Below are positions 25,462-34,932 of a stretch of DNA of 64,000 nucleotides, piece after piece (position 1 is the stretch's first letter; each line of letters opens with the position of its first letter). The stretch lies in IMG/VR virus record IMGVR_UViG_3300045421_000501, positions 50,183 to 114,182 of that record; one strand, given 5' to 3'. This DNA is from a virus. Both the position numbers and the translations under genes were made by a program. The notes under the pieces were generated by a model. The model did not search any database, had not been told where the DNA came from, and was given only the letters and a program-made list of their open reading frames with translations.

Positions 25462-26190
25462 ATGCCATTACCTAAAGTTCCTACACCTACGTATGAATTA
25501 ACTTTACTTTCGACTGGAAAGGTAGTTAAATATAGACCATTTTTGGTTGGAGAAGAGAAAATTTTAATTATTGCAATTGAAAGTGCAAATACTGATGAAA
25601 TCACAGAAGCAGTTAAAAATGTTTTGAAATCTTGTATTTTGACAAAGACTGTAAAAATCGAAAGTCTTCCTAGTTTTGATATTGAATATCTATTTTTAAA
25701 TATTAGAGCAAAATCTATAGGTGAAACTGTTGATGTAATGATAACTTGTCCAGACGATAATGAAACTCAAGTTGAGCATACCGTAAATATTGCGGATGTA
25801 AAATTAGAAATTCCAGAAGGACATACTGAAATTATTGATTTAGGTGAAGAACTTTATTTGAAGATGAGATATCCTTCATTACGTGAATTTATTGACAATA
25901 ATTTTGTATTTTCAAAACAAAATAATTCTGAAATGATTCAAAAAACTTTTGAAATTGTATCTTCGTGTATTGAACAAGTTTATAATAAAGAAGAATCTTG
26001 GTCAATTTCAGATTGCACAACTCAAGAAGTAGTTGAATATCTTCAAACACTTACTTCGATGCAATTTAAACAAATTGAAAACTTTTTTGAAACTATGCCT
26101 AAATTATCATATAAGACTGAAGTTGTAAATCCCAAAACAAAAGTAAAATCAGAAGTAATAATTGAGGGATTATCAAGTTTTTTCGGGTAG
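25462..26190 (+). CDS. 26: gp26-like baseplate hub subunit (T4_baseplate family)
   Basis: Product of 242 aa. MPLPKVPTPTYELTLLSTGK, VKYRPFLVGEEKILIIA and YLFLNIRAKSIGE are the T4 gp26 family hallmarks; the C-terminus has IENFFETMPKLSYKTE. It takes part in hub assembly. The zero-frame product ends SSFFG-stop, and the heptamer T TTT TTC lies two codons before the stop, so ribosomes may slip into a long -1 frame (see next entries). A chaperone role like that of G/GT proteins is therefore possible. Confidence 0.85.
   Translation: MPLPKVPTPTYELTLLSTGKVVKYRPFLVGEEKILIIAIESANTDEITEAVKNVLKSCILTKTVKIESLPSFDIEYLFLNIRAKSIGETVDVMITCPDDNETQVEHTVNIADVKLEIPEGHTEIIDLGEELYLKMRYPSLREFIDNNFVFSKQNNSEMIQKTFEIVSSCIEQVYNKEESWSISDCTTQEVVEYLQTLTSMQFKQIENFFETMPKLSYKTEVVNPKTKVKSEVIIEGLSSFFG
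26178..26184 (+). other. Candidate -1 ribosomal frameshift site
   Basis: T TTT TTC fits the X XXY YYZ slippery rule in the gene 26 frame (AGT TTT TTC GGG TAG). Slippage by -1 avoids the stop at 26188 and continues for 62 codons to TAA at 26370-26372. Confidence 0.6.
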
Positions 26191-26372
26191 TTTTTTGTCA
26201 TACGAGTTTGGAAAGTTATTATGAAATTAATTTTGCACTTATGAATTATCATAAGTGGAGTATTTCTGAACTTGAAAATATGATTCCGTGGGAAAAACAA
26301 ATTTATATTAATTTGTTGGAAAATTATTTGGAAAGTGAAAAATTAAAGACAGCACAAAGCGCAAATGCTTAA
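26184..26372 (+). CDS. -1 frame extension of gene 26
   Basis: The -1 frame is open from 26166 and encodes ...SYYEINFALMNYHKWSISEL followed by ENMIPWEKQIYINLLENYL. That resembles the short W-x-x-x-E-L...P-W-E...I-Y helical domains added to tail chaperones by frameshifting. The only internal ATG (26241) has no Shine-Dalgarno and would cut the domain. The next gene's ATG (26365) overlaps this stop, which fits translation through this frame. Expected fusion: about 303 aa. It could instead be a separately started ORF from TTG 26208 or ATG 26241. Confidence 0.6.
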   Translation, partial: RVVFCHTSLESYYEINFALMNYHKWSISELENMIPWEKQIYINLLENYLESEKLKTAQSANA

Positions 26373-27990
26373 TTCTTTTTTACCGCCAAGAAATCTCCAA
26401 TTTGTTGGAAGAACTAAAGTCAATGATCCTCTTGAGTATTCAAGAAGAATGATGCAAAAAAATGGGGATCCTTTGCGTGAATTTTTAGAATCTTCAGGCA
26501 GAGAAAAATTTATACCTCCAATTTCGATTGGACAAAGAATGAGTAGTGGTTATGATAAACTTTTACTCAATGCAGAAGAAAAATTCCAACGTTTGGCACC
26601 AGAATCAATTCGCAGTTTGGGAAAATTGGTTTTGGAATTTGAACAAATTAATGGTAATCTGAGTCAAATGCAAAAGGAGTTGAAAAATCAACTCAAAAAT
26701 AAACAAAAAATTGCATCTCAGGAAAAGAAAATTGCAGAAGATGAATTAAAAGAACTCAAAGGAATTCGGGGATTATTTTTTGGTATTAGATCTCAGTTTG
26801 CTTTATTTTCTGGAGCTTTGGGAATAAAAGCTCTTTTAGAGGGAAGATATAAAGATGCTGCCATAGATTTCGGAGCATCAATAACTGCAATGATTCCTGA
26901 AATTGCGGCAATCGCCGGAAATATTGTCTTGGGGGGATTGGCAGTAAAAGGAATTTTTGGTGGAGGAATGCCAAAGGGAAATGCTATTCCTAAAATTCCT
27001 CAAACTAGAGCAATTCCTAGAGGTGGAGGAGGAATTGGAACAATACTGGGACTTGCCGGATTAGGAATTGGTACTGCATCTTTATTTGGGCAAAAATCAA
27101 CAGAAACAAAACTTGAGGAACTTCAAAAAAAAGAAATTGGACAGAGAGATAATTTATTAACGCTTGAAGATGTAAATCGATTTACGATTCTTTTGCTGAG
27201 ATTTGAAAAAATCTTAGATAGAATGGTTGGAAAGGATACTGAAAAATCAAAAAAATCTTCAAATTTATCTGGAGATCCATCTCCATTTCCAGGACAAAAA
27301 ACTCCTCTTGAAGAGGGAGAAATTGCAAGTGCAAAAAAAGTTTATGATGGACTAGTTAAAAGAGGATTTGATCCAGAAACTGCTGCAGCAATAACTGGAA
27401 ACATTGCAGCAGAATCTTCATTTAATACTGGAAATGTAAATCCAACATCTGGAGCATTTGGTTTAATGCAATGGTTAGGAACAAGATTAGATAATTTGAT
27501 TAAATTTGCATCATCAAAAGGAAAACCAGTTGCAGATTTAGATACTCAACTAGATTTTATTATGTCTGAAGCAAAAGGATCTGAAAAAAGTAATTATCAA
27601 AAAGTACAAAATGCAAAAGGAATTGCATCTAAAACTGAAGTATTTGCCAGAGAAGTTGAAAGACCTTCAGAAAAAGAAATTCGAGAATCTATGGGAAGGA
27701 GATTGGGTGTTGCAGAAGACGCATATCGTAAATTTTACAAAAATGTAAATTCACCTCCTTTACAAAAACCAGAAATCGGAAATCAATCATCACTTTCATT
27801 TACAACTAATAATGACTTGCCAGGTGGAATTAATTTAATTCCAATACCAATAGCATCTTCACTTCCTCCGACAAAAAACTCTCCTGTTGCATTACCAGCA
27901 TCTTCGCAAGATATTTCATTAGATCCAAAGCAACATTGTATTGAAGAACTTGAAACTTGTACTGTTTATGGAATTCCTTATATGGCATAA
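26365..27990 (+). CDS. Tape-measure/hub-like protein with phage tail lysozyme domain
   Basis: Product of 541 aa. Residues ~85-135 form a lysine/glutamate coiled coil and ~140-235 hydrophobic and Gly-rich segments, as in tape-measure proteins. Residues ~324-455 (AKKVYDGLVKRGFDPETAAA, ITGNIAAESSF, GAFGLMQWLGTR) are a Phage_lysozyme2-type muramidase domain with a catalytic-type Glu in AAESSF. It lies directly after the frameshift ORF, the normal place of a tape measure. Length is close to T4 gp29 (590 aa). Likely carried in the tail to open the host wall at infection. Confidence 0.65.
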   Translation: MLNSFLPPRNLQFVGRTKVNDPLEYSRRMMQKNGDPLREFLESSGREKFIPPISIGQRMSSGYDKLLLNAEEKFQRLAPESIRSLGKLVLEFEQINGNLSQMQKELKNQLKNKQKIASQEKKIAEDELKELKGIRGLFFGIRSQFALFSGALGIKALLEGRYKDAAIDFGASITAMIPEIAAIAGNIVLGGLAVKGIFGGGMPKGNAIPKIPQTRAIPRGGGGIGTILGLAGLGIGTASLFGQKSTETKLEELQKKEIGQRDNLLTLEDVNRFTILLLRFEKILDRMVGKDTEKSKKSSNLSGDPSPFPGQKTPLEEGEIASAKKVYDGLVKRGFDPETAAAITGNIAAESSFNTGNVNPTSGAFGLMQWLGTRLDNLIKFASSKGKPVADLDTQLDFIMSEAKGSEKSNYQKVQNAKGIASKTEVFAREVERPSEKEIRESMGRRLGVAEDAYRKFYKNVNSPPLQKPEIGNQSSLSFTTNNDLPGGINLIPIPIASSLPPTKNSPVALPASSQDISLDPKQHCIEELETCTVYGIPYMA

Positions 27991-29603
27991 TGAAAATACA
28001 ACAACTGGTAAATATATCTCAAAAAATTAAGAATAATACTATTGTCACAAAAAAATTTTTTGAGCAGCAGTCTAGTATAGAAACAGACTTAGATCGAAAA
28101 AAAATAATTAGGCAAAAAAAATTATTAGAAGAGCGAGTTTGGACACTTAAAAAACTTTCGGAAAAATTTGAGGATGCCAAAAAAGAAGCAGAACAATCAA
28201 AATCTGGTTCAGTTAATACTTTATTGGGAGCATTGGGACTTGGTGGAGTTGCAAGAATACTCAAAGGATTTAAATCACCAAGTCCCAAATTTTCATCTAC
28301 AAACTTTACAAAAGTTTTAGGTAAAAATTCTTTATTAAAAAATTCATCAAAATTACTTAAGGGTATTCGCGGAAACGCAGTTCTTTCTACAGTTTTTGCT
28401 GCCTTTGATTTTCAGAATAGGAAATCTCAAGGACAGACTAATTTACAAGCAGGATTTGGTGCTGGTGCATCTGCTGTAGGAGGACTTGCAGGAATGCAAG
28501 CAGGTGGAACAATCGGAGCTGCAATTGGATCAATAATTCCTGGTCCTGGAACTCTAATTGGTGCAGGAATTGGTGCAGTATTAGGTTCATATTTTGGGTC
28601 CACTGCTGGTGGAACAATTTCTGATAAGATTACTGGTGTCGATAAAATTACTGATGGTGGAAGTTTAAGACAAAAACTTGAACAAAGAACTGAAATTGAA
28701 AAATCAAAAATTACAGAAAAAACTTTATTCGGAGATTCTTTAGATATTTTTGAAAGAATATTAGATAAACTTGTAAAAATAAAATCTTTAGACGTTTCTA
28801 GACCACAACCAGTATCAAAATCTGATTTTGTTGAACCAAAAGAACCAGATTTTACTCCTAGTTCTGAAAGTGCAAAAGCACCGGAAGAAGTTCTAAAGGA
28901 TGCTGCAGAATTTAGAAAGCAATTTCCTCTTGCACCAGGAACTCCACAATTTTCAATGCAACCATATGAACTTCAAATGAGAGAAAATACTTCTTTGGGT
29001 TATCTTGGAAATGATCCAACAGTAGATAAGGTTCATACGGAAGGATCTGCACATTATGACAATCGTGCAATTGATATTCCAGTTAATAGTAAAGAACTTG
29101 GAGATAAAGTATCAAGTTATTGGAGGTCTAAAGGATATAGAGTTATATGGAATACTGCGGGACATTATACTCACGTTCATGTGCAATGGGATCGAGGACA
29201 AAAAAAAGACAGAGATAAACCAAACGATTTTTCAATTCAAAAAATTGTAGAAAGAATACAAGATTTTAAATCTACTTTTAATAAGGGTAGTGGCAGAGAC
29301 TTACGAATTGAAGGTTTTGGAACTTATGTTTTAGGTACGGATTGGAAAAAAGATCCTGAAGACAAATTTTTTGATCCGACAGGAAAGCAAATGAATCCAA
29401 ATCAAGTAAAGGATAAACTTAAATTAATTTATGGAAAAGAATCTCAAAAAATTATTAATTTATTTTATCCAGTTCCATCACAACCTCAATCATCATCACC
29501 ACCAAAAATAAATGCCGAAGGCGGTAATGCAAGTATTCCTTCTTCCAATTCATTTGACATCGCTAAATATCATCAATGGATGACTGAAATAAATCTCACA
29601 TAA
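27990..29603 (+). CDS. Second hub/tape-measure-like protein with LAS/M15-like peptidase domain
   Basis: Product of 537 aa from ATG 27990, which overlaps the previous TAA. Residues ~20-65 are coiled coil. Residues ~150-205 are a long glycine zipper (AGFGAGASAVGGLAGMQAGG, then GAAIGSIIPGPGTLIGAGIG), a membrane-active pattern. Residues ~346-395 hold SAHYDNRAIDIPV and HYTHVHVQWD, matching the His/Asp...His-x-His zinc site of LAS (M15-like) DD-peptidases. Paired with the upstream lysozyme protein it could cut peptide cross-links while the other cuts glycan chains. Confidence 0.6.
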   Translation: MKIQQLVNISQKIKNNTIVTKKFFEQQSSIETDLDRKKIIRQKKLLEERVWTLKKLSEKFEDAKKEAEQSKSGSVNTLLGALGLGGVARILKGFKSPSPKFSSTNFTKVLGKNSLLKNSSKLLKGIRGNAVLSTVFAAFDFQNRKSQGQTNLQAGFGAGASAVGGLAGMQAGGTIGAAIGSIIPGPGTLIGAGIGAVLGSYFGSTAGGTISDKITGVDKITDGGSLRQKLEQRTEIEKSKITEKTLFGDSLDIFERILDKLVKIKSLDVSRPQPVSKSDFVEPKEPDFTPSSESAKAPEEVLKDAAEFRKQFPLAPGTPQFSMQPYELQMRENTSLGYLGNDPTVDKVHTEGSAHYDNRAIDIPVNSKELGDKVSSYWRSKGYRVIWNTAGHYTHVHVQWDRGQKKDRDKPNDFSIQKIVERIQDFKSTFNKGSGRDLRIEGFGTYVLGTDWKKDPEDKFFDPTGKQMNPNQVKDKLKLIYGKESQKIINLFYPVPSQPQSSSPPKINAEGGNASIPSSNSFDIAKYHQWMTEINLT

Positions 29604-34819: not shown

Positions 34820-34821
34820 AT

Positions 34822-34909
34822 GCGAGTGAGACTTGGTAGTCAGAGGAGTTTTATAAACTCTTTCCGCCAGATTAGCGGCTTTGAAGTGGTTCGAATCCAC
34901 TCACTCGCA
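34822..34909 (+). tRNA. Class II-type tRNA with unusual anticodon (UAU by my folding)
   Basis: Acceptor GCGAGTG/CACTCGC, T-arm AGTGG-TTCGAAT-CCACT and a long variable arm (CCGC...GCGG) are clear. The anticodon arm GGAGT-TTTATAA-ACTCT gives anticodon TAT. Bacterial long-arm tRNAs are normally Leu, Ser or Tyr, none with UAU. The D-arm is short (GACT-TGGT-AGTC). Either the tRNA is degenerate or altered, or my arm boundaries miss something. Identity left open. Confidence 0.6.
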
Positions 34910-34932
34910 TTCGTTATTTGCGAATAACGAAT
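34909..34932 (+). other. 10-bp perfect hairpin between tRNA genes
   Basis: ATTCGTTATT / AATAACGAAT with loop TGCG fills the space between the first and second tRNA. It may be a processing signal for the tRNA transcript or a duplicated end. Confidence 0.75.

Follow-up and report, generated by a model that had tools for sequence, protein, structure and literature searches.

Does gene 26 of this T4-related virus make a single protein, or does a -1 slip of the ribosome near its 3' end add a longer form, after the fashion of G and GT in phage lambda? In phages with long tails, it is the tail assembly chaperones that set up the length of the tail and the assembly of the hub. T4 has long been cited as the exception to their conserved frameshift, a passage of Atkins 2016 (PMC5009743) describing the G-T frameshift as widely conserved except in T4. 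Vladimirov, Gautam and Davidson (Virology 2022) identified the tail assembly chaperone genes of T4-like phages, and a 2025 paper (PMC12846349) cites that study for poly-T -1 signals in the TAC-N genes of these phages. The main idea, a frameshifted T4-like chaperone, was thus published in 2022 and the locus described here is an additional member; the value of the present analysis therefore lies mainly in annotation and in the details of the stimulators. New beyond what has been described may be the Shine-Dalgarno (SD)-like stimulator, a covarying hairpin in marine phages and, in Ackermannviridae, a frozen site without the heptamer.

The original prediction, made from the letters of the window (the whole 64,000-nt stretch of viral DNA that was analysed), was that a G/GT design recurs here in a gp26 context, and this holds with respect to the heptamer, the frame, the missing initiation signals and the position of the gene. 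We consider it very probable, on the sequence and its relatives, that gene 26 encodes a T4-related tail assembly chaperone made in a short and a long form by a -1 slip on T_TTT_TTC. What the sequences show is the anatomy, the phase, the conservation, the SD signal and that both forms have homologues in T4 (gp26 and gp51); the slippage itself, its rate, the binding partners and the chaperone function are what we infer from this.

Organization of the gene 26 locus

The 0-frame product of gene 26 belongs to the PF12322 (gp26-gp51) family, with a match to the Pfam T4_baseplate profile at E 9.6e-69, well over the curated cut-off, and another to PHROG 150 at 5.7e-72; its AlphaFold model has a mean pLDDT of 86. 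As listed in Table 1, the gene ends TCA AGT TTT TTC GGG TAG, and the heptamer claimed for this end is present in the correct phase, although only one codon, and not two, separates it from the stop. A slip to the -1 frame would open the full 62 codons that had been foreseen, giving a fusion of 241 + 62 = 303 aa. The extension, described beforehand as a conserved-looking helical domain, has tblastn matches in 581 phage records and matches PHROG 634, 'baseplate hub assembly catalyst', at 9e-26; the first start codon in its frame is a TTG at 26208. By analogy, the 0-frame product would be the short form (TAC-N, counterpart of lambda gpG) and the extension would be the C-terminal domain of the long form (TAC-NC, counterpart of lambda T).

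Table 1. Coordinates of the features at the end of gene 26 (positions are those of the window)
Feature	Coordinates	Strand	Evidence
Gene 26, 242-aa 0-frame product	25462..26190	+	PF12322, PHROG 150, AlphaFold
SD-like GAGGGA, 8 nt upstream of the heptamer	26164..26169	+	anti-SD energy peak
Slippery heptamer T_TTT_TTC, in slippery phase	26178..26184	+	read from sequence
-1 frame extension, 62 codons and TAA (26370-26372)	26184..26372	+	tblastn, PHROG 634, relatives
0-frame stop TAG, a single codon (GGG) after the heptamer	26188..26190	+	read from sequence
Possible downstream RNA structure, long stem with inner hairpin	26197..26287	+	folding z
Next gene with tail lysozyme domain, probably all or part of the tape measure	26365..27990	+	PF18013, PHROG 9570

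The sequence TTTTTTC by itself is common in this AT-rich window, with 26 occurrences on the plus strand and 52 on the minus strand (78 in total); GAGGG-N8..12-TTTTTTC occurs once against 0.09 expected. The site exceeds chance on this count, and mainly by the conservation of the heptamer and of the -1 domain in relatives.

The next gene matches PF18013 at 2.2e-30 and the tape measure family PHROG 9570 at 4.8e-25. The earlier description of it as tape-measure-like is borne out by these profile matches and by its position, which together make the label likely. Gene 26 and the -1 ORF are two overlapping ORFs directly upstream of a tape measure gene so assigned, the arrangement looked for in a frameshifted tail assembly chaperone. 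The ATG of the next gene sits 5 nt ahead of the -1 stop, so that this gene and the -1 ORF overlap by 8 nt, and lacks a good SD (+0.7 kcal/mol); among the 47 lineages with a placeable next gene, 44 have the next ATG no more than 12 nt away from the -1 stop. Because the ATG falls inside the end of the -1 ORF, coupled translation of the next gene is likely, and given the missing SD and the same arrangement across lineages, the few slipping ribosomes may also aid translation of the tape measure gene. A further gene at 27957-29603 likewise has tape-measure-like PHROG matches (phrog_167, 1.9e-10; phrog_794, 1.7e-9), and the tape measure may therefore be divided over two genes.

Conservation of the heptamer and of the -1 frame

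Relatives of gp26 were collected from IMG/VR and from annotated phages and dereplicated at 90% nucleotide identity to 91 genes, 81 of which represent lineages of the single-gene type. The C-terminal domain is encoded in the -1 frame in every one of the 81, and never in the 0 or +1 frame. The heptamer T_TTT_TTN, 6-15 nt ahead of the stop, is kept in 74 of the 81, and at least T_TTY is present in every one. It is spread over Kyanoviridae, KVP40-like and other Straboviridae and Emdodecavirus, and is also found in Pootjesviridae, a Methylophilales phage and one member of the Ackermannviridae. An in-phase slippery sequence near the 3' end of the first ORF is thus retained in relatives, and the alignment of relatives that had been proposed as a check brought up none of the contrary observations named with it. 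Regarding the possibility that the split is an assembly error or a decayed gene, i.e. one continuous ORF broken by a sequencing frameshift, nothing speaks for it except that the window is a single record, while 81 dereplicated lineages, isolated phages among them, are split alike at the identical codon, which refutes it; we regard it as vanishingly improbable.

TTT serves as the first Phe codon in all 74 heptamer lineages, while synonymous changes occur in almost every other conserved degenerate column, and the preceding codon ends in T in all 74 with the residue itself varying (S, D, N, A, G). From codon usage, the summed log10 P is -11.8 for the first Phe codon and -19.5 for the preceding T, values that overstate significance because the lineages were treated as independent and their kinship was ignored. 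We found no counterexample to this pattern beyond the Ackermannviridae. Downstream, the sequence has the codon pattern of the -1 frame, with zero -1 stops in 38 sequences.

A run of T might also make RNA polymerase slip, so that the fusion would come from mRNA length variants. The slip site is indeed such a run, reaching T7 or T8 in some relatives; it counts, however, no more than six T in the window or in the majority of relatives, and the codon phase together with an SD-like element at ribosomal spacing fits ribosomal slippage better. Transcriptional slippage is therefore extremely unlikely, and a ribosomal -1 slip is the reading that we retain.

Putative stimulatory elements and initiation signals

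Across the 74 lineages, the anti-SD energy has a peak 7-15 nt upstream of the heptamer with a mean of -5.65 kcal/mol, whereas the start codons of gp26 give a weaker -3.3. Compared with a synonymous-codon null, the element is again stronger (-5.68 vs -4.44, z -7.7, 0 of 200), and the Glu of the EG motif is written GAG in 30 of 49 cases against 26% overall. These observations suggest that the SD-like GAGGGA is likely a frameshift stimulator.

Downstream of the heptamer, folding is somewhat more stable than in shuffled sequence (mean z -1.8). In marine phages, an 11-bp hairpin begins 5 nt after the heptamer and shows compensatory changes, with 87.9% of cells paired and a covariation score of 0.228 vs 0.124 in shuffles, in a set of 24 lineages partly picked because the stem was visible. 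Since RNAalifold predicted no consensus structure over all 39 cyanophage sites, the hairpin is claimed for this 24-lineage marine subset. The window lacks a proximal hairpin of the marine type (z +1.56), a point against the proposed mechanism; a longer structure over 26185-26290 (folding z -3.06) gives a weak indication and is unlike the 11-bp marine hairpin.

The prediction that the -1 ORF has no internal ribosome binding site agrees with what is seen across lineages, where start codons in the -1 frame are without SD (mean +0.76 vs -3.3 kcal/mol at gp26 starts). Their positions are scattered from -1 to +95 nt, often within the conserved domain, and for both reasons independent translation is unlikely as a general rule; the second ORF lies in the shifted frame and lacks initiation signals of its own. 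That ribosomes nevertheless read the -1 ORF as a small gene of its own ('gp51'), by reinitiating past the stop of gene 26 or through coupling, would be in keeping with an ATG 5 nt past the 0-frame stop in about 20 of the 81 lineages and with most database records, which annotate it as its own gene. Yet apart from the scattered, SD-less starts, conservation begins at the heptamer and not at any start codon, the ATG of marine phages is buried in a stable hairpin, the strong SD-like element aims at the heptamer, a site without a start codon, and in T4 gp51 the two domains are fused in one frame. Keeping these points in mind, we judge a separate gene to be very unlikely and favour the frameshift.

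Sites without a canonical heptamer

The -1 domain persists in seven Ackermannviridae lineages that have no canonical heptamer, which counts against the heptamer mechanism. In six (L090, L187, L191, L192, L194 and L094) the site reads ATT TTC ATT TAA after GAG, GAA or CAG. Among Kuttervirus and the relatives of Erwinia phage Bue1, a near-invariant block, ATTTTCATTTAATTTTTGAAATTG, of about 24 nt spans the 0-frame stop, with 19/20 and 18/20 identical against about 5-15/20 in the surroundings. As a tentative reading of this alignment, on balance more doubtful than not, the block could be a non-canonical recoding site, for example for a single tRNA-Phe slip on U_UUC. If this were true, one protein ratio would have been reached by three solutions, namely tandem slip, non-canonical slip and, in T4, gene duplication.

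In Vibrio phage 1.244.A (L089) gene 26 ends CTT TTT CGC TAA and the -1 domain is conserved. Judging by these codons, nothing but a single-tRNA slip on T_TTT is possible at the site.

Comparison with T4 gp26 and gp51

Vladimirov and colleagues reportedly described frameshifting in several T4-like groups, and two separate genes in the T4 group. In T4, gene 26 and gene 51 are separate and divergently transcribed; PMC3004832 presents their products as hub assembly chaperones, gp51 being needed for assembly yet absent from the particle and the location of gp26 being disputed. Both proteins match PF12322, gp26 (208 aa) along its whole length and gp51 (249 aa) over residues 1-201, and gp51 also matches the full PHROG 150 profile including its C-terminal end. 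Unlike the window, T4 draws its two forms from separate genes without a heptamer; the domain that the -1 frame of gene 26 specifies in the window is part of gp51. A profile built from -1-frame products alone found six T4-type gp51 proteins, each at its C-terminus (1e-8 to 7e-13), and no gp26. In a survey of 18 T4-type loci, one contig ends within gene 26 ahead of the site, and the heptamer is absent in all 17 copies readable to the gene end, several of which keep Phe-Phe, now as TTC TTT. Since the -1-domain profile finds the C-terminus of gp51 only and T4-type gene 26 has no heptamer, gp26 is the counterpart of the short form and gp51 that of the long form, and T4 is by sequence a natural control, with the long form as a separate gene and gene 26 devoid of both heptamer and -1 domain. 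The tree has three clades (single-gene, T4 gp26 and T4 gp51); being unrooted, it is silent on the ancestral arrangement.

An AlphaFold model of a T4-type gp51 (pLDDT 92.9), built on an alignment of gp51 and -1 products, has a series of helices as its C-terminal domain. Another alignment, which combined gp51, gp26 and C-domains, was dropped for folding because its C-terminal third was misaligned. Sequence searches of the PDB with gp26 and T4 gp51 gave zero matches, and Foldseek against the PDB found nothing significant for either the gp26 model, the best match being HK97 2ob9 at E 0.87, or the gp51 model; among the BFVD matches of the gp51 model is a 'Tape measure chaperone' (E 0.017). That no solved tail assembly chaperone gives a significant fold match to the gp26 model, even with 2ob9 at the top of the list, speaks against the chaperone reading.

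Proposed mechanism and known frameshift systems

In the mechanism that we propose, most ribosomes would stop at the TAG and release the short form. The SD-like element, and probably RNA structure further downstream, would pause a fraction of them; these would slip by -1 on T_TTT_TTC, the tRNA-Phe in the P and A sites re-pairing on TTT TTT, and then read the 62 further codons to yield the long form. By analogy with lambda G/GT, many short and few long copies would coat the tape measure protein from the next gene, the C-terminal domain would recruit the next tail or hub component, and both forms would be absent from the finished virion.

The likeness to lambda lies in the -1 slip at the end of the first ORF, giving a short and a long form just ahead of the tape measure gene, and in a second ORF without an independent start. 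The protein family, however, is another one and the fold match is not significant; lambda slips on GGGAAAG, while the window has T_TTT_TTN with an SD-like stimulator. The E. coli dnaX -1 frameshift uses an A_AAA_AAG heptamer, an upstream SD-like element and a downstream hairpin. The site shares with dnaX a slippery heptamer and an upstream SD-like element, to which the marine relatives add a hairpin at about 5 nt, but the gene is unrelated and the heptamer differs.

Annotation and wider meaning

Taken together, a single frameshift gene would supply both forms in many relatives of T4, abundant marine cyanophages among them, and two genes would do so in T4 itself, whereby T4 gp26 and gp51 gain a concrete role. 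The short 'gp51' entries in cyanophage genomes very likely do not stand for independent genes, and the proper annotation of gene 26 and the -1 ORF would be a joined frameshift CDS. Many databases list the -1 ORF as a separate 'gp51' or omit it: after gene 26 of L001-L003, L087, L088, L090, L103 and L104, public records either carry no annotation for it or name it gp51 with an arbitrary start.

Elsewhere in the window, at 34821-34910, ARAGORN places a tRNA-Ile of 90 nt (anticodon TAT) next to a tRNA-Met and a tRNA-Leu(TAA); its length and anticodon are unusual, and the call may be a mistaken one.
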